45,582 bases of DNA from Alphaproteobacteria bacterium (GTDB lineage Bacteria; Pseudomonadota; Alphaproteobacteria; UBA8366; GCA-2717185), in assembly GCA_040905865.1 (NCBI GenBank), contig JBBDQU010000025.1, forward strand, positions 1-45,582, given 5' to 3'. Numbering within the stretch: the stretch's first letter is position 1; each line of letters opens with the position of its first letter. Below are positions 19,852-41,942 of the stretch, one piece after another. The translations under genes were made by a program, and so were the position numbers. The notes under the pieces are model-generated. The model was not told the DNA's origin. It made no database searches and saw nothing but the letters and a program-made list of their open reading frames with translations.

Positions 19852-21249
19852 CTAATTCAGCCATTCCGGCGCATCACCCCCCAGCACCGGCGTCGGCCGT
19901 TCCCAATAGGGCTGGGTTTCGGAGAGTTGCAGCACCGGACGCAGGTGCTTCACCGGGCCCTGCTTCGGTTCGGACCTTGTCCGCAATCCATCCAGCTCTT
20001 CGGGGGATAGGTCCATGTCGGGCCGGTCGAAATCAACCTTGCCCTGGCGGTAGATGAACATGCCCGACTGGCACAGCGAGACGCGGACATGGTAGCTGCC
20101 GCCCTCGCGCGCGCGGCGGGCCAGCGCCAGCAGCACGCCATAGGCGCCGAGATAGCCGGTGGTGTAGTCGTTCGCCGCCGCCGGCAGCAGCTTCGGCCGT
20201 TCCGGCGATCCTTCCATGCAGATTCCGGTCACGGTCTGCGCGACCTGTTCCCAGCCCGCGCGGTGGCTGAACGGGCCATCCGCGCCAAAGCAGCTCGCCG
20301 ACATGCAGACGATGCCGGGCCGCCGTTCCGCCAGCTCTTCGGGCGAGAAGCCGAATTTCGCCATCACGCCGGGGCGGTAGCCCTGTGAAAACACGTCCGC
20401 CTGGCCGGCCAGTTGCTTCAGCTTTGCATTCTCGTCCGGATCGTTCAGGTCCAGGAAACAGCTGCGCTTGCCGTGGCTGGTATCCAGCACGTGTTCCGGC
20501 ACCTGGGGCAGGTGCCCGGCCGCGACCATCAGCACATCTGCGCCATTTTCCGCCAGGGTCCGCCCGGCGATCGGGCCGGCCAGGATGCGGGTCAGGTCCA
20601 GCGCCCGGATGCCGGAAAGGGGCCGGCCGCCCTCCGGGAAAGGTTCCGGGTCGCTGTCGCCGATCCTGATGATTTCGACGATGGGTTTGCCGGTCAGCAC
20701 CCTGCCGTGGTCGCAATCGAGCCATTCCGCGTTGCTGCGCACCATGCCGCCGCAGGCGCGGGCCTCGTCGATGGCGGCTTCCAGGTCCATCGCATCCCAG
20801 GTCCGGACGGCGGCGGCGACGGATTCCGGCGTCAGTTCGCAACCCAGCACAGCCTGCACCCGGTCGCGCAGGTGCGGCAGGTTGAAATGCGGCAGGAAGT
20901 GGCGGCCGTCCTTCGTTTCCCAGGGCTGGGTGATGGACGCCATATGGATCATGGAGGGGCTGTTCAGTGCGGTCCAACTGCCGTCGTCCTGCTGCCTGAC
21001 GAGGTTGTGCGAGCTGCGCAGCGAGGCGGCGGCGTGGCGGGTGTCAACCGTCGCCTTCTGCCGCCGCCCGGTCTTCAGCTCCCAGATATCGTTCACCGCG
21101 ACGCCGACCCCGGCGACGACATTGGCGCAGGTTTCGCCGATCCTGAACCTGGTGGAATAGACCGGGTCCGCCCCCGTAATTTCGACCTCGCCGCTTTCCG
21201 GCATGCCGAGGCCGCGCACGGCCATGATTTCGTCAAATGCAGCACCCAT
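19852..21249 (-). CDS. Family III CoA-transferase (CaiB/BaiF)
   Basis: A 465-residue protein of the CaiB/BaiF CoA-transferase family. The segments IRALDLTRILAGPIAGRTLA, ENGADVLMV, and KRSCFLDLNDPDENAKLKQL, plus a DVFSQGYRPGVMAKFGFSPE region, are hallmarks of this fold; they begin near residue 225. The first 220 residues form the partner lobe that in many relatives comes later, as if circularly rearranged or a half-duplicated form. Family III enzymes move CoA between carboxylic acids. GGGAGA lies before the ATG. A 96-residue unknown gene lies upstream in the same direction. It is part of a catabolic region, with a TctCBA transporter further on. Confidence 0.83.
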   Translation of the reverse strand: MGAAFDEIMAVRGLGMPESGEVEITGADPVYSTRFRIGETCANVVAGVGVAVNDIWELKTGRRQKATVDTRHAAASLRSSHNLVRQQDDGSWTALNSPSMIHMASITQPWETKDGRHFLPHFNLPHLRDRVQAVLGCELTPESVAAAVRTWDAMDLEAAIDEARACGGMVRSNAEWLDCDHGRVLTGKPIVEIIRIGDSDPEPFPEGGRPLSGIRALDLTRILAGPIAGRTLAENGADVLMVAAGHLPQVPEHVLDTSHGKRSCFLDLNDPDENAKLKQLAGQADVFSQGYRPGVMAKFGFSPEELAERRPGIVCMSASCFGADGPFSHRAGWEQVAQTVTGICMEGSPERPKLLPAAANDYTTGYLGAYGVLLALARRAREGGSYHVRVSLCQSGMFIYRQGKVDFDRPDMDLSPEELDGLRTRSEPKQGPVKHLRPVLQLSETQPYWERPTPVLGGDAPEWLN

Positions 21250-25011: not shown

Positions 25012-26514
25012 TTACGCGTCGCCGCGGCGCTCCCGACGCAGCCGGCGCAGCCAGACGAAGAACGGAAACAGGACGGCGGCCAACGCGAACGCCAGGATCG
25101 TGGCGCTGATCGGCCGGGTCACGAATATATCCAGTTCGCCCAGCGACATCTGCAACGATTGCCGCATCGCTCTTTCAAGCATCGGTCCAAGCACCAGCGC
25201 AAGGACCAGCGGCGCGGGCGGATAGCCGTACAGGCGCATGACGAAACCAATACCGCCGAAGACGATCGTCACGCCCACGTTGAAGAGACTGTTCTCCACG
25301 CTGTAGACGCCGAACAGTGCAATGCCGATGATGATGGGAATCAGAATGCTGTAGGGAACCCGAAGGATACTGGCGAACATCGGGGCCAGCGGCAGGTTCA
25401 GGATCAGCAACATCACGTTGCCGATATACATGCTGGCGACAAGCCCCCAGAACACGTCGGGATGGGTGCTCATCAGCAGCGGTCCGGGCTGCATGCCGTA
25501 TAATGTAAGCGCACCCAGCATTACCGCGGTCGTGCCGGACCCGGGAATGCCGAGCGCCATCAGGGGGATCAGCGCGCCGGTGGATGCCGCGTTGTTCGCG
25601 GATTCCGGCGCGGCGACGCCTTCTATGACGCCGGTACCGAACTTCTCGGGCCGTTTGGAAACCCGCTTTTCGGTAGCATAGGCAAGGAACGAGGAGATTG
25701 TAGCGCCCGCGCCCGGCAGCATGCCCACGAAGAAACCGATAGCCGTGCCGCGGGTAATAGCGCCGCTTGAATCGCGCCAGTCCTGCCGCGTGGGGAGCAA
25801 CCCGCTTAATTTCGCCTTGATCGGCTTTGAACGGATCGGACGATAAATATTGAAGAGAAGTTCGCCCACGGCGAAAAGCCCGACGGCGACCGGGAGAAAA
25901 TCAAGCCCGTCCAGAAGGTTTACGTTGTCGAAGGTAAAACGGGGGGCGCCGATCATAAGGTCGATGCCGATCGTACCGAGAGTCAGTCCGACGACCGCCA
26001 TGAGCAGGCCCTTGATCATGGACCCGCCTGTCAGGCTCGCGAGCGTCGTAAGTCCGAGCAGCATGAGTGCAAAATACTCCGGTGGACCGAAGGTGATTGC
26101 AAACTCGGCAAGGGGCGGCGCCGCAATCATCAGCAGAACCACGCCTACGGTGCCGGCAATGAACGAACCGATCGCGGCCATCCCAAGGGCTGCACCGGCG
26201 CGTCCTTTCAGCGCCATCTGATACCCGTCCAGTGTGGTCATCACCGACGCCGATTCACCGGGCGTGTTGATCAGGACGGACGTTATGGTGCCCCCGTACA
26301 TTGCGCCGTAATAGATGCCGGCCAGCATGATCATTGCGGTGACAGGTGGCATGCCGAACGTCACCGGCAGCAGCACCGCAACGCCGGCAGACGGGCCGAT
26401 TCCGGGCAGGGCGCCGATCAGGGTGCCCAAAAAAACGCCGGCGAAGGCGAACATCAGGTTGGTCGGCGTAAACGCAATAGAAAAGCCGAGAAACAGATCG
26501 TTAAACAAATCCAT
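25012..26514 (-). CDS. tctA: Tripartite tricarboxylate transporter large permease, TctA family
   Basis: A 500-residue polytopic membrane protein with the TctA hallmark segments GTLIGALPGIGPSAGVAVLL near the N-terminus and GMLPGAGATISSFLAYATE in the middle, plus ALGIPGSGTTAVMLGAL. It is the large permease of a TTT uptake system, driven by the ion gradient and fed by the periplasmic TctC. Its order after tctC and tctB, all on the minus strand, is the usual one. The stop is 144 bases before the ketopantoate-reductase-like gene. Confidence 0.93.
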   Translation of the reverse strand: MDLFNDLFLGFSIAFTPTNLMFAFAGVFLGTLIGALPGIGPSAGVAVLLPVTFGMPPVTAMIMLAGIYYGAMYGGTITSVLINTPGESASVMTTLDGYQMALKGRAGAALGMAAIGSFIAGTVGVVLLMIAAPPLAEFAITFGPPEYFALMLLGLTTLASLTGGSMIKGLLMAVVGLTLGTIGIDLMIGAPRFTFDNVNLLDGLDFLPVAVGLFAVGELLFNIYRPIRSKPIKAKLSGLLPTRQDWRDSSGAITRGTAIGFFVGMLPGAGATISSFLAYATEKRVSKRPEKFGTGVIEGVAAPESANNAASTGALIPLMALGIPGSGTTAVMLGALTLYGMQPGPLLMSTHPDVFWGLVASMYIGNVMLLILNLPLAPMFASILRVPYSILIPIIIGIALFGVYSVENSLFNVGVTIVFGGIGFVMRLYGYPPAPLVLALVLGPMLERAMRQSLQMSLGELDIFVTRPISATILAFALAAVLFPFFVWLRRLRRERRGDA

Positions 26515-26538: not shown

Positions 26539-27012
26539 TTAAAAGCCCAGGGGGCCGCTCGGCACAGGCACGTCCAGAAACAGGACGAATACCAGATAAA
26601 CGAAGCAGACCGTGGCCGCGCTTGTTCCGATTGCCGCGGTGTAGGACAGCCGTTGTACGCCGAGCGTAAGGAATAACAGAAAGAAGAAGAGTGCTATCGC
26701 GAGACCGACCCAGGGCACGAGGATCAGGAATCCGACAAGGCCGACCAGAGCCAACGCCACGCGCAACAGGCCATGCGGTTCAAGCGCATCCGGATTTTCC
26801 CCTTCATCCGCCGGCTGTGGTTTCCGCGCGCTGGTCAACGCAACGCCCACCATCAGTGCGGTAAGGATCAGGCCGATGACGCTGAGCCATATCGGCGCGA
26901 AGCCGGGCCCGGGCGCGAACTCGGTACCGTACTGGAAGCTGCTTGCCTCCCAAATGACGGCACTGAATCCGAGCCCGAGCAGGAGGCCGGCAATGACGTC
27001 GGCGCGAGTCAT
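26539..27012 (-). CDS. tctB: Tripartite tricarboxylate transporter small permease, TctB family
   Basis: A 157-residue membrane protein with about four hydrophobic helices (for example VIAGLLLGLGFSAVIWEASS at the N-terminus and GLAIALFFFLLFLTLGVQRL later) and the YGTEFAPGPGFAPIWLSV loop seen in TctB proteins. I start at the ATG at 27012; the frame extends to 27222, but that overlaps tctC and reads as shadow. It is 24 bases before tctA. Confidence 0.87.
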   Translation of the reverse strand: MTRADVIAGLLLGLGFSAVIWEASSFQYGTEFAPGPGFAPIWLSVIGLILTALMVGVALTSARKPQPADEGENPDALEPHGLLRVALALVGLVGFLILVPWVGLAIALFFFLLFLTLGVQRLSYTAAIGTSAATVCFVYLVFVLFLDVPVPSGPLGF

Positions 27013-27055
27013 GAACGTATGCCCGCGCCGCGCGCCCTGTGCTGTGACATTTTGC

Positions 27056-28066
27056 CTACTGCTTCTTGGCGATGCCGAGTTCCGTGAGAATCTCGGTATA
27101 ATACTGGTGCTGATTGGCGATATACTTTTCGGCATCCTCGCCGATCCGCAACAGCGGGCGCAGACCATTATCGTCCATGTATTTTTTGAAACCTTCGGAT
27201 TTGAACAGGCCGACCATGACATTCTGCCAGAACAGCGATTGCTGGTCTGTCAGACCCGCCGGAAGGATCGCGCCGCGATGCTGTTCCAGCGTTACATCGT
27301 AACCCTGTTCGCGGGCCGTCGGCACATCGGGCCAGTTCTCCAGCCGTTCCGGTGACAGCATGGCCAGCGGCCGCAGCCTTCCGGCGGCAACCAACTGCGC
27401 GGCCTCGCTGGGATTCGGGCCTGCCATGTCGACGCTGCCGCCCAGCAGGGCCGCGTTCGCTTCGCCGCCGCTGTTGAATACGATATAGTTGAGCTGAATT
27501 CCCGCGGCCTTTTCCAGGCGATTTTCGATGATATTGTCGGATGAACCGACGCTGCTGCCGCCGATGCGGATGCCGTTCGGTTTCTGCTTCGCCGCTTCAA
27601 CGAGATCCTTCAGCGTCTTGTAGGGAGACTCGGTGCGCACGACAGCCACGTAATCCTCGACGCACAGGACAGCGACGTTGATGAAATCCTTGTAACTGAC
27701 CGGCGAATGTCCCTGGATGGGAGTCGTGAGGTAGGAACTAGTCGCGGTCGCAATGACATGCGGATCGCCCTTCTTGGTATTCACATACGAATAAGCGACC
27801 GCGCCGCTGCCGCCCGGTTTGTTGACGACATTGATCGGTACATCGACCAGACCTTCCTTTGCCAAGATGCTGGCCATGGTGCGGGCGAACAGATCGCTGC
27901 CGCCGCCAGGCGCTGCCTGGACGACAAATTCCACGGCGCGATCAGGCTTCCAGGTCGACTTGGGCAAGTCCGGAATGGCATTGCCGCTTTGCGCGAAGGT
28001 TGCAGTCACCGGTAAAGCGGCGATTGCAACGGTTGCGAATACGAAACGAAGAACCGGCTTGAGCAT
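27056..28066 (-). CDS. tctC: Tripartite tricarboxylate transporter periplasmic substrate-binding protein, TctC/Bug family
   Basis: A 336-residue protein with a signal peptide (1-26, ending TATFAQ) and the Bug/TctC pattern: PDRAVEFVVQAAPGGGSDLF, then VNKPGGSGAVAYSYV, and a late LRPLAMLSPERLENWPDVPT. I start at 28066 because GGGGGAG lies 8 bases upstream; an ATG at 28090 is less likely. It heads the tctCBA operon. The ligand is probably a carboxylate degraded by the neighbouring enzymes, but cannot be named. Confidence 0.9.
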   Translation of the reverse strand: MLKPVLRFVFATVAIAALPVTATFAQSGNAIPDLPKSTWKPDRAVEFVVQAAPGGGSDLFARTMASILAKEGLVDVPINVVNKPGGSGAVAYSYVNTKKGDPHVIATATSSYLTTPIQGHSPVSYKDFINVAVLCVEDYVAVVRTESPYKTLKDLVEAAKQKPNGIRIGGSSVGSSDNIIENRLEKAAGIQLNYIVFNSGGEANAALLGGSVDMAGPNPSEAAQLVAAGRLRPLAMLSPERLENWPDVPTAREQGYDVTLEQHRGAILPAGLTDQQSLFWQNVMVGLFKSEGFKKYMDDNGLRPLLRIGEDAEKYIANQHQYYTEILTELGIAKKQ

Positions 28067-28378
28067 CTCAGTTACTCCCCCAAGTATCATGCTGCGTTCA
28101 GACTGCAGGCTTCTAAAAGCTGTCCATCCTGCCGTTAATACGGGAAGACTGCCCCGGTTTCGGGCATCGTGTCAATCGAAGTCAAACGGAACCAGAAAGT
28201 GTCTGGTATAAGCGTCGACCTCGGGCGCGCTCCGGGTGCCGATGGGGCGGCAGGGAACACCTACGGCAGGTATTTCAGCAAAAACCGGGCGGCTTTTTTC
28301 CGGAGACGGGGCGCCTTTGTGGTTGGCAAGCGATTTTGCCGCGTGACTGTTTCGATATAACGCAATAAAACCAGCGGT
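28067..28378. other. Intergenic region between tctC and the selenocysteine tRNA
   Basis: This 312-bp stretch should hold the tctCBA promoter and the tRNA promoter. A small palindrome CCAGA-aagtg-TCTGG lies near 28192. Just before the tRNA, 28349-28372 is AT-richer (TTTCGATATAACGCAATAAAA) and may be the tRNA promoter -10 region. No gene is supported; the minus-strand frame crossing this area and the tRNA is spurious. Confidence 0.4.
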
Positions 28379-28474
28379 GGAGGAGCATCGTTCCCCGGTG
28401 GGGCGCTCGGTCTTCAAAACCGTTGAGGGGCGTTCAACGTGCCTGGTGGGTTCGACTCCCACGCTCTTCCGCCA
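28379..28474 (+). tRNA. selC: tRNA-Sec (anticodon TCA)
   Basis: A 96-base tRNA with selenocysteine-tRNA features. An 8-bp acceptor stem (GGAGGAGC with GCTCTTCC, one G-U) is followed by G and an encoded CCA. There is a long D stem (TCCCC/GGGG), and the anticodon loop CTTCAAA has TCA at 28414-28416. A long variable arm and a T stem-loop GTGGG-TTCGACT-CCCAC complete it. The TCA anticodon reads UGA as selenocysteine with SelB. It lies 3 bases from the stop of the convergent LysR gene and 2.2 kb from a selenoprotein gene. selA, selB and selD are not in this window. Confidence 0.95.
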
Positions 28475-28476
28475 AT

Positions 28477-29385
28477 TCATTTTCCCGCGAAGGCGGGCCG
28501 CAGCAGGTCCAGGAATCCCTGCGCGGCCGGCGACAGGGCGCGGTCCCGGCTGGTCAGCAGGCCCACCCGCCGGGTGATTCCGGGCTCGGCCAGCGGCGCG
28601 GCGCCCAGCGCCGGGTCGTCCGCCGCCGGGGCCGCGCCGGCCGGGACGATGGCGACTCCCAGCCCCTCGCGGATGAAACGGTACAGCGTCGCGAACTGGT
28701 TGACCGTGATATCATAGGCGGTGGACACCTCGGCCGCGACCGCGGCGGTATCGATTATCCGCCGAATGCCCGCCTCCGGGGTCAGCGATATCACCGTTTC
28801 GCCGCGCAACTGCGCCATGGCGATGCTTTTCCGACCGGACAACCGGTGATTCCGGGGCATGACGACGGTAAAGGTTTCGCTGCGCAGCAACTCCCCGGCG
28901 ACAGCGCCGTGCAGGGTATCGACATCGCCGATGCCGAAATCCGCGATTCCGGTCCGGACGTCCTCATGCACCAGCGCCTGGACGTTTTCGCGCAGCTGGA
29001 TCTGGATGGCGGGATAGCGTGTCCGGTAGGCGGCGATGACCGGCGGCAGCACGCTGTAGGCGACCGACATCAGCGATGCGACGATCAACTGGCCGCGCTG
29101 CCGCCCCGCCAGGTCCTGCATGTTGCGGATGCCCAGGGTCAGGTCGCCGAGCAGGCGTTCGGCGACGGGGACGAATTCCCGCCCCGCGGCCGTCAGCGCC
29201 ACATGGCGGGTCGTGCGGGCGAACAGGTCGACCCCCAGCGCCGCCTCGACCTGTTTGATCGTCCGCGTCAGCGCGGGTTGCGATATGTCCAGATGGCTGG
29301 CCGCCGCCACGAAACTGCCGAACTGCGCCAGGGTGGTGACGGCGCGCAACTGGCGGGTGCCGAGTTCCGGGGGGCCTGAGTCCAT
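28477..29385 (-). CDS. LysR-family transcriptional regulator
   Basis: A 302-residue LysR regulator with an N-terminal winged helix-turn-helix (about 10-70; FVAAASHLDISQPALTRTIK) and a C-terminal periplasmic-binding-like effector domain (GQLIVASLMSVAYSVLPPVI onward). I start at 29385; a longer frame to 29478 begins with an unlikely Tyr/Ile-rich stretch over the promoter. It is divergent from the operon with the selenoprotein, the classical LysR layout, and is likely to control that operon. The effector is unknown. Confidence 0.9.
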   Translation of the reverse strand: MDSGPPELGTRQLRAVTTLAQFGSFVAAASHLDISQPALTRTIKQVEAALGVDLFARTTRHVALTAAGREFVPVAERLLGDLTLGIRNMQDLAGRQRGQLIVASLMSVAYSVLPPVIAAYRTRYPAIQIQLRENVQALVHEDVRTGIADFGIGDVDTLHGAVAGELLRSETFTVVMPRNHRLSGRKSIAMAQLRGETVISLTPEAGIRRIIDTAAVAAEVSTAYDITVNQFATLYRFIREGLGVAIVPAGAAPAADDPALGAAPLAEPGITRRVGLLTSRDRALSPAAQGFLDLLRPAFAGK

Positions 29386-29516
29386 GTGACGGCTCCGATG
29401 GAAATTAAGATTAATAACAATTATGGAATAATAATCGTTATACATAAAGTATTGATAATAAGATATCCCGTGACGCATACTGCGCCCTCGGATTTTACCA
29501 GACCAACCGGCCGGGG
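29386..29516. promoter_or_regulatory. AT-rich LysR-type divergent control region
   Basis: This 131-bp AT-rich gap lies between the LysR gene and the selenoprotein operon. It contains the palindrome ATTAT-GGA-ATAAT at 29420-29432 and flanking ATAAC (29414-29418) and GTTAT (29437-29441). These fit LysR T-N11-A style sites, so this is the likely operator. Confidence 0.5.
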
Positions 29517-30653
29517 ATGGAAGTCATGAGCAGCGATGCGGCAGTCACCACACAGGCGTTTCCGTCGAACGGGCGCGTCGCCGACGATACCGACCTGGTT
29601 GAATGGTATTATGCGCAGGGTTTTTCCGACGGGTTTCCCGTCGTGCCGCCGACGCCGGACAAGGTCGAGGCGATGCTGGAAGCGCTGGGCGGCGATCCCG
29701 ACTACCTGGAATGCCGGGTGCCGCCGCGCTGGGGCGGGCTGACCCGGCAGGTGCTGGCGGTCAATATGGTGATGGCCGGCTGCCTGCCGTCCTATGCGCC
29801 GGTGGTGCGCGCGGCGATGCTGGCGCTGACTTCGCAGGCGTTCAACCTGCACGGGGTGCAGGCGACGACCCATATGGCGGCGCCGCTGCTGGTGGTGAAC
29901 GGCCCGATCCGCAATGCAATCGGCATGAATTCGGGCCATAACGTCTTCGGTTCGGGCAACCGCGCCAATGCGACCATCGGCCGGGCGATCCGAATGATCC
30001 TGCTGAATGCCGGCGGCGGTTGGCCGGGTGAACTGGACAAGAGCACCCTGGGTCATCCCGGCAAATACACTTACTGCATCGCCGAGAACGAGGAGGTAGG
30101 CTGCATCGCGCCCTATCACGTCGACAAGGGGTTCGAGGAAACGGATTCAACCGTCTTCGTGATGCCGGCGGAACCGCCGCACAGTGTCACCAACCATGTC
30201 GCCAACGATCCCGAGGGCATCCTCGACAGCATCGTTTCGGCGATGAGCACCATCGCGCACAACAACGCGGTCAGTTCCGGCCATTGCGCCGTCGTGCTGG
30301 GACCGGAACATGCCCGGGTGATGGCGAAATACGAATGGAAACGCCACGATATCCGGCATTATCTGTGGTACCAGGCGCATAACAAATTCGGCGATGTCGC
30401 GTTCCAGCACCGCTACGGCAAGGTCTATAACCGGAGCCTGCCGAAATGGTACAGCCGCCGCGATGGCGACCGGATTCCGGTGGTGCCGACGCCGGATCAC
30501 ATCCATCTCTTCTGCGCCGGCGGCGAAGCCGGGCGGTTTTCCGCCTTCATTCCCGGCTGGGGCCATATGGCCAGCCCGGTGCTGCGTGAAATCAACGGCA
30601 AGTCGCCGCCGGGCGGCGGACCGCAATGCGTTGACGGAACCTGTTACCTGTAA
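29517..30653 (+). CDS. Protein of unknown function, operon partner of a UGSC selenoprotein
   Basis: A 378-residue soluble protein I do not recognise with confidence. Visible features: YYAQGFSDGFPVVPPTPDKV near residue 31, many conserved-looking Gly/Asn motifs (GMNSGHNVFGSGNRANATIG), no signal peptide or membrane helices, and a C-terminal Cys pair in CVDGTCYL (six residues apart), which could form a redox disulfide. The start could be the ATG at 29517 or at 29526. It lies 19 bases before the selenoprotein gene, is divergent from a LysR regulator, and forms a conserved-looking redox unit. It could be a substrate-binding or catalytic subunit whose disulfide is reduced by the selenoprotein; that is inference. 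Confidence 0.7.
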   Translation: MEVMSSDAAVTTQAFPSNGRVADDTDLVEWYYAQGFSDGFPVVPPTPDKVEAMLEALGGDPDYLECRVPPRWGGLTRQVLAVNMVMAGCLPSYAPVVRAAMLALTSQAFNLHGVQATTHMAAPLLVVNGPIRNAIGMNSGHNVFGSGNRANATIGRAIRMILLNAGGGWPGELDKSTLGHPGKYTYCIAENEEVGCIAPYHVDKGFEETDSTVFVMPAEPPHSVTNHVANDPEGILDSIVSAMSTIAHNNAVSSGHCAVVLGPEHARVMAKYEWKRHDIRHYLWYQAHNKFGDVAFQHRYGKVYNRSLPKWYSRRDGDRIPVVPTPDHIHLFCAGGEAGRFSAFIPGWGHMASPVLREINGKSPPGGGPQCVDGTCYL

Positions 30654-30672: not shown

Positions 30673-31230
30673 ATGCCACTCGATACCCCCAACAGCGGTA
30701 TTGCCGTGTTCGACCCGCGCGGCGTGGTCGAGGCGGAGGCGATTCCGATCGGCCGCCGCCACAATACCCTGGCCGGCTTGCGGCTCGGCGTGCTGAGCAA
30801 TCGCAAATGGAACGGCAACAAACTGCTGCGCGCGACCGTGAAGGCGCTGGAAGCCGATACGGAATTCGCCAGCGTCACCTTCTACGAGAAGGAAAGCTTC
30901 TCGAAGAACGCCGACCCGCACCTGCTCGGGGAGATCATAGCGGACAGCGATATTGTGCTGACCGCCATCGGCGACTGAGGCTCCTGTACGTCGTGCTGTA
31001 TGCATGACGCCATCAGCCTCGAAGGCCAGGACCGGGCGACCGCGGTGGTCGTGACGACCGAATTCAAACATGAAGCCGAAGTCCAGCGCGCCGCGCTGGG
31101 CATGGAGGGTCTCGTGCCGGTCGTGATCCAGCATCCGCTCAGCACCCTGTCGGATGAGGAAATCTCGGACCGCGGCGCGGATGCGGCGGCGCAGGCGGTC
31201 CGGATCTGGCTGGGACAGGCCGCCGGTTGA
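30673..31230 (+). CDS. UGSC-motif selenoprotein (UGA at codon 102 = selenocysteine)
   Basis: This is a 185-residue selenoprotein if the in-frame TGA at 30976-30978 is read as Sec102. The flanks read VLTAIGD-U-GSCTSCCMHD, so Sec starts the motif U-G-S-C that names this (seleno)protein family. Reading continues in the same frame for 83 more well-composed residues (AISLEGQDRATAVVVTTEF, HPLSTLSDEEISDRGADAAA) to a stop at 31228. A SECIS-like hairpin follows the UGA directly and a tRNA-Sec gene is nearby. The N-terminal half (WNGNKLLRATVKAL) looks like a Rossmann-type domain. GGGAG precedes the ATG. Ordinary gene calling would truncate it at 30978 or split it in two. The reaction is unknown; a redox role at a UxxC pair is likely. 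Confidence 0.9.
30976..31020 (+). promoter_or_regulatory. Bacterial SECIS element directly after the Sec UGA
   Basis: The mRNA folds just after UGA. The outer stem GAGGCT (30977-30982) pairs with AGCCTC (31015-31020). The apical stem GTCGTGC (30990-30996) pairs with GCATGAC (31002-31008), seven pairs with one G-U. The loop is UGUAU (30997-31001). A G in the first two loop bases, at about 18-20 bases from the UGA, is the known bacterial SECIS rule, and it is met. SelB with Sec-tRNA would bind the loop. All of it lies within coding sequence. Confidence 0.85.

Positions 31231-40232: not shown

Positions 40233-41942
<1,710 letters not shown>

Follow-up and report, generated by a model that had tools for sequence, protein, structure and literature searches.

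A UGA-recoded UGSC-family gene and its near-obligate partner: a putative thioredoxin-fed selenoenzyme with GrdB/PrdB kinship

The window, a stretch of 45,582 nucleotides of alphaproteobacterial DNA, carries on its forward strand a UGSC family selenoprotein gene (30673..31230, stop codon included) encoding 185 residues with selenocysteine at position 102. Its reading frame starts with the ATG at 30673, and its sole interruption is the TGA at 30976..30978 (+), codon 102 of 185. The initial annotation had proposed that this TGA interrupts a 185-residue frame at the U of a UGSC motif followed by further cysteines, and that the product belongs to the UGSC family. Coordinates, UGA position and motif are all as claimed, the motif reading UGSCTSCC, and the readthrough product scores above the cut-offs of both NCBIfam NF041046 (128.7 bits; cut-off 125) and Pfam PF24696 (170.4 bits; cut-off 25), the latter being matched by all 71 aligned UGSC members. 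As a gene, it is a further member of a known family, whose function was unassigned in a 2026 review (PMC13188914). Family membership is already-known biology; new are the partner, the GrdB/PrdB kinship, the thioredoxin link and the gene surroundings. The expectation that automatic annotation truncates such genes is true of the one Sec-type RefSeq plasmid copy seen, from Acidovorax sp. T1, whose CDS stops within the UGSC match and is named hypothetical; most Cys copies in RefSeq already bear the name 'UGSC family (seleno)protein'.

The window's own genome holds five UGSC genes. All of them have exactly one stop inside, and in every case it is TGA, which is more than expected by chance. At related loci, collected via the neighbouring partner gene and not via UGSC, the same codon is TGA in 70 UGSC genes and TGC (Cys) in 13, so that the alignment around Sec102 proposed at the outset does yield Cys homologues. 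Hosts of the Cys form are Achromobacter, Cupriavidus, Parapusillimonas, Candidimonas, Mycobacterium, Roseicella, and Rhodococcus. On the UGSC tree, the Sec/Cys label switches just twice, and eleven Cys forms group within the Sec clade of the window with moderate support. Compared with 12 Sec orthologues, pN/pS is 0.26-0.51 downstream of the UGA and 0.49-0.70 upstream; by these ratios both halves of the gene are under purifying selection, and the low values downstream indicate that the downstream half is translated protein.

The bacterial SECIS hairpin postulated after the UGA is present at 30976..31021 (+), with a predicted folding energy of -23.9 kcal/mol (z -3.6). Its core stem (30989-30996/31002-31009, +) encloses an apical loop UGUAU with G as second base (30997-31001, +). 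Core-stem pairing is kept in 94% of cells in 69 distinct Sec genes but drops to 62% in the 13 Cys genes, while slid registers in the Sec genes, taken as control, pair in 10-54%. By this measure, Sec forms preserve the hairpin, whereas it has decayed in Cys forms. The tRNA-Sec gene, likewise part of the initial annotation, is identified at 28379..28474 (+) by ARAGORN and by Rfam RF01852 (68.3 bits). Within the genome of 4.37 Mb, selA and selB lie adjacent on one contig and selD on another, all above cut-offs. Neither of the computable outcomes named beforehand as speaking against recoding, a lack of Cys or Sec homologues and the absence of selA/selB/selD, thus occurred. Among the Sec-form genomes, selA exceeds its cut-off in 12 of 14 and is fragmentary in a further one; it is missing from 6 of the 12 Cys-form genomes. 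That the UGA is a true stop or the gene decayed, with a product of just the 101-residue fragment, has nothing in its favour except the codon itself; given a TGA shared by 70 relatives with TGC in 13 others, purifying selection 3' of the UGA, the SECIS element and complete Sec machinery, we regard this as practically negligible. On comparative sequence evidence, the frame 30673-31230 is a single, UGA-recoded gene.

Directly upstream, 29517..30653 (+) encodes a 378-residue partner protein (AlphaFold2 pLDDT 90.1), which has no match in Pfam or NCBIfam. A UGSC gene lies within 2.5 kb on the same strand of 81 of the 91 partner genes, which stem from 80 contigs of many phyla, at a median gap of 91 bases. 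The other four UGSC genes of the window's genome each have their own partner copy: two have it directly upstream, the one on contig C8 has it upstream across tctC/tctA, and the one on contig C40 is fused in the order UGSC-partner. Moreover, in an independent collection of plasmid loci, searched with UGSC alone, the partner adjoins in all eight examined, haloarchaea and actinobacteria included. As judged by gene order, the partner gene is an almost obligate associate of UGSC. This suggests that the two proteins work together, probably as a physical complex. The partner may be the domain 'Unknown_1', whose fusion to UGSC was noted in 2008 (PMC2398784). A fold search with its model returned no solved structure with Z >= 8 and no clear PDB match. 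The residues D38, G39, C89, G129, G155-R156 and E190 make up a conserved pocket of the partner.

The fusion in C40 (9903-11672, L026) is a single chain of a divergent UGSC domain (UGACATAC) and the partner, with one TGA read through. A Variovorax plasmid shows a similar UGSC-partner arrangement in the Cys form, annotated as one hypothetical protein of 545 residues. A count of frequent UGSC-partner fusions was dropped because six-frame reading runs through TGA stops; the C40 fusion stands. Two deviating arrangements occur further afield. Poribacterial partner homologues (L059, L062, L070, L072, L073, L075, L076) are shorter, about 313-320 residues, with no UGSC gene recognised nearby, and possibly form a partner branch serving something else. 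On the haloarchaeal plasmids L142 and L146, a Cys-form UGSC gene stands between two different partner paralogues, which suggests a three-gene complex in haloarchaea.

Three genomic features make the electron supply of the pair look thioredoxin-based. Thioredoxin reductase genes adjoin it in 8 contigs; those of the Achromobacter/Cupriavidus/Candidimonas type carry a CATC motif, and in RefSeq the Roseovarius operon includes an annotated trxB, while trxB-trxA is annotated immediately before the partner in Arthrobacter. No dedicated thioredoxin reductase gene stands beside the pair within the window. Further, a thioredoxin-like domain with CPTC and VPT motifs opens 14 of 96 partner frames, including three from the window's own genome; its profile finds solved thioredoxins in the PDB at E 5e-7; a PDB sequence search with the partner alignment gave weak thioredoxin matches only, and these come from this fused domain. 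Finally, the window partner ends in CVDGTCYL, encoded at 30627..30650 (+), in which C371 and C376 form a C-x4-C pair. The ending C-x-x-G-x-C-x-[LIV], after a variable linker, is found in 29 of 29 complete partners of the window clade, in Sec and Cys hosts alike, versus 2 of 1183 other proteins of the same loci, and its residues are disordered in the AlphaFold2 model (pLDDT <50). The tail is absent from all 14 thioredoxin-fused partners, and 52 of the 96 have neither tail nor domain. The nominal P of 0.003 for the mutual exclusion of tail and domain overstates it, since the pattern is set by clades and the 96 frames are not independent events. By these associations, a redox supply that looks thioredoxin-based is well supported at the level of genomics. 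In class I ribonucleotide reductases, a disordered double-cysteine tail reduces the active site (PMC9669993).

The UGSC protein itself is predicted with high confidence (71 sequences; pLDDT 91.7, pTM 0.85) as five strands alternating with helices, and Sec102 is placed directly before helix 103-118. The closest structures in a fold search are generic Rossmann/flavodoxin-like ones (best Z 10.6), from which no function can be inferred, and no thioredoxin is among the matches listed; searching the PDB directly with the UGSC sequence gave no match. The model thus looks Rossmann/flavodoxin-like, unlike the thioredoxin fold considered likely in 2008 (PMC2398784), although a thioredoxin fold may still apply.

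Profile comparison leads to the selenoprotein B subunits GrdB and PrdB. Aligned by hhalign with 21 short PF07355-type proteins, UGSC reaches a probability of 94.8% (E 5e-8) with Sec placed on Sec over a span of about 70 residues. The value is still 92.4% with every Cys masked, and unrelated neighbour families and the partner reach at most 2.3%. Run on the six frames of the loci, the PF07355-type profile finds, besides one true PF07355 protein, nearly always UGSC (best E 2e-9). In a Pfam scan of the 71 UGSC members (E up to 1, HMMER filters on), PF07355 is not listed for the window protein, nor is it among the 25 commonest families listed for the 71; the other weak matches are scattered and were put down to chance. 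With no PF07355 match listed, the relationship is one of distant homology and not of family membership. At the level of profiles, UGSC and the catalytic part of GrdB/PrdB are remote homologues, with common ancestry of the Sec-containing part. A GrdE/PrdA-type protein (PF09338) was found neither in the window's genome nor in 180 others of its class, in a search that had no positive control; the pyruvoyl chemistry of GrdB complexes may thus be absent.

Three short genes of the PF07355 (GrdB/PrdB) type are present in the window's genome as well (C10:29187-29609, C5:150129-150566, C36:69599-70051; L138, L139, L140), with no UGSC partner gene beside them. The C10 frame reads across a TGA that falls at a UPNC motif; the gene on C5 adjoins a CoA-transferase-like gene.

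On the upstream side of the window, a LysR-family regulator (28477..29478, -; Pfam HTH_1, LysR_substrate) diverges from the partner gene; it is followed by the genes of a tripartite tricarboxylate transporter, the TctC/Bug solute-binding protein (27056..28090, -; PF03401), the small membrane subunit TctB (26539..27222, -; PF07331; start codon uncertain, overlapping tctC) and the large membrane subunit TctA (25012..26514, -; PF01970). With the window counted, LysR occurs near the pair at 8 loci and TctC at 12, and TRAP transporters recur there as well. TctABC is likely to take up the substrate of the pair. Further off lie a CoA-transferase family III protein (19852..21249, -; PF02515), a TauD-type dioxygenase, an SDR and a PanE-type reductase. 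Family III CoA-transferases stand near the pair in 17 of 80 contigs and 4 of 8 plasmid loci, a recurrence that suggests a functional link to UGSC. Since neighbourhoods differ among paralogues, CoA-transferase and transporter may serve different pathways.

Individual loci add to this picture of surroundings. A groundwater betaproteobacterial MAG (L089) has four UGSC genes in 21 kb with TctC-type genes nearby, suggestive of paralogues for different substrates. The UGSC pair on contig C37 of the window's genome (L025) diverges from putrescine-utilisation-like genes (glutamine synthetase-like, DAO, GATase, ornithine decarboxylase-like). The Sec-type gene of Acidovorax sp. T1 resides on the IncP conjugative plasmid p2-T1 (L144) near IS1071, alongside PEP-mutase-family and FAD oxidoreductase genes, which suggests a mobile catabolic trait. 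Elsewhere in the window, Rfam 5_ureB_sRNA matches 40388-40672 (-) with 84.5 bits, antisense to the urease gene of a urea transport/urease cluster.

In clostridial glycine reduction, electrons pass from NADPH via thioredoxin reductase and thioredoxin to GrdA and GrdB (PMC3091704), and a GrdB-like operon has been tied to fluoroacetate reduction (PMC10838667). Together with the gene context, these precedents lead us to propose that UGSC and its partner form a thioredoxin-fed selenoenzyme that cleaves a small carboxylic acid or CoA ester reductively, a reading we favour, though well short of certainty. UGSC would be a compact alpha/beta protein sharing descent with the catalytic part of GrdB/PrdB, with Sec102 at the predicted helix start and Cys105 as putative resolving thiol. 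The selenolate would attack the carbon bearing the leaving group on the small carboxylic acid or CoA ester, in the manner of glycine, betaine and proline reductase. Upon release of the reduced product, the remaining selenenylsulfide would be reduced by thioredoxin, itself charged from NADPH through thioredoxin reductase. Electrons would arrive via the flexible C-terminal CxxxxC tail of the partner in the window clade, as in class I ribonucleotide reductase, and via the thioredoxin domain fused to the partner in other clades. The substrate would probably enter via TctABC, with CoA-transferase chemistry alongside. Complex formation, direction of electron flow, reaction and substrate class are all presumptive in this scheme.

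The thioredoxin association of UGSC loci and the UxxC motif would also suit a general thiol/selenol antioxidant, a peroxidase or disulfide reductase of thioredoxin-like fold with incidental neighbours, as suggested in 2008, when a thioredoxin fold was called likely (PMC2398784). However, strands and helices take turns along the confident model, Sec stands where a helix begins, Rossmann/flavodoxin-like structures are closest, and profile homology points to GrdB; the near-obligate partner, the CoA and transporter context and the five paralogues in one genome fit substrate-specific catabolism better, so that we hold an antioxidant role to be improbable. A shade less probable still is that the pair acts on acyl-CoA or dicarboxylic acids without reducing them, by thiol/selenol chemistry of the lyase, hydratase or acyl-transfer type in which the dithiol systems only keep the selenol reduced. 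Neighbouring genes for CoA-transferases, a CoA ester lyase, an HMG-CoA lyase and PEP-mutase-family proteins are compatible with it, as is a Foldseek likeness of the partner to class I fumarase, although that match is weak (TM-score about 0.25), and dedicated trxB/trxA genes, the thioredoxin fusion and the ribonucleotide reductase-like tail suggest that electrons are consumed in stoichiometric amounts. As a UxxC selenoprotein, UGSC might also detoxify metals, arsenicals or organometals, a role that comes to mind because some other prokaryotic selenoproteins are discussed with heavy metals (PMC13188914); the annotated recurring neighbours comprise no mer, ars or metal-transport families and instead include catabolic genes, which makes this role very unlikely.

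For UGSC, a common environmental protein, the reading as a two-gene reductive-cleavage enzyme provides a first concrete, testable mechanism. The near-obligate partner, the GrdB/PrdB homology, the thioredoxin route and cultivable Cys-form hosts (Achromobacter, Cupriavidus, Roseovarius, Arthrobacter) make its function experimentally tractable. If true, chemistry of the glycine/proline-reductase type would reach well beyond anaerobic amino-acid fermenters, and soil and water would harbour a new enzyme class for carbon-heteroatom cleavage. More tentatively, and with somewhat less than even confidence, we suggest that UGSC and its partner stand for a widespread enzyme class that has so far gone unrecognised: two-subunit, thioredoxin-fed enzymes of reductive cleavage sharing ancestry with GrdB/PrdB, in which a different partner replaces the pyruvoyl subunit and a swinging dithiol tail like that of ribonucleotide reductase, or a built-in thioredoxin, delivers electrons; in haloarchaea and in bacteria of soil, freshwater and the sea, paralogues would each be specialised for a carboxylic acid of their own.

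Among known systems, the NF041046/PF24696 family is the one to which the protein belongs, with both cut-offs passed, the U/C-G-S-C motif and Sec or Cys at its first position; in the protein itself there is no difference. The likeness to class I ribonucleotide reductase NrdA concerns the tail alone: both have a disordered C-x-x-G-x-C-x-[LIV] ending after a variable linker (E. coli NrdA ends in CESGACKI), which we take as convergence and not as membership. The fluoroacetate reductase operon farACEB (PMC10838667) similarly couples a GrdB-related selenoprotein pair to a transporter for the proposed reductive cleavage of a substituted acetate; in contrast to the UGSC loci, its components are of GrdE/GrdB type, its host is an anaerobe, it carries a radical SAM gene, and no CoA-transferase is among its four genes. 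Closest are GrdB and PrdB, the selenoprotein B of glycine, betaine and D-proline reductase. UGSC differs from them in having about half the length of GrdB, in the lack of a listed PF07355 match for single sequences, in a partner that is not a recognised GrdE/PrdA and in its occurrence in Pseudomonadota, Actinomycetota, Chloroflexota and haloarchaea; it is the missing PF07355 profile match and the unfound pyruvoyl partner (PF09338) that keep the system from being counted as a member. It shares with them profile homology with aligned Sec residues, UxxC, a following helix with E..GIPT, a terminal HP/PLG motif and nearby thioredoxin and thioredoxin reductase genes. The UGSC system is therefore best described as a variant of the GrdB/PrdB kind which, on present evidence, works like them.
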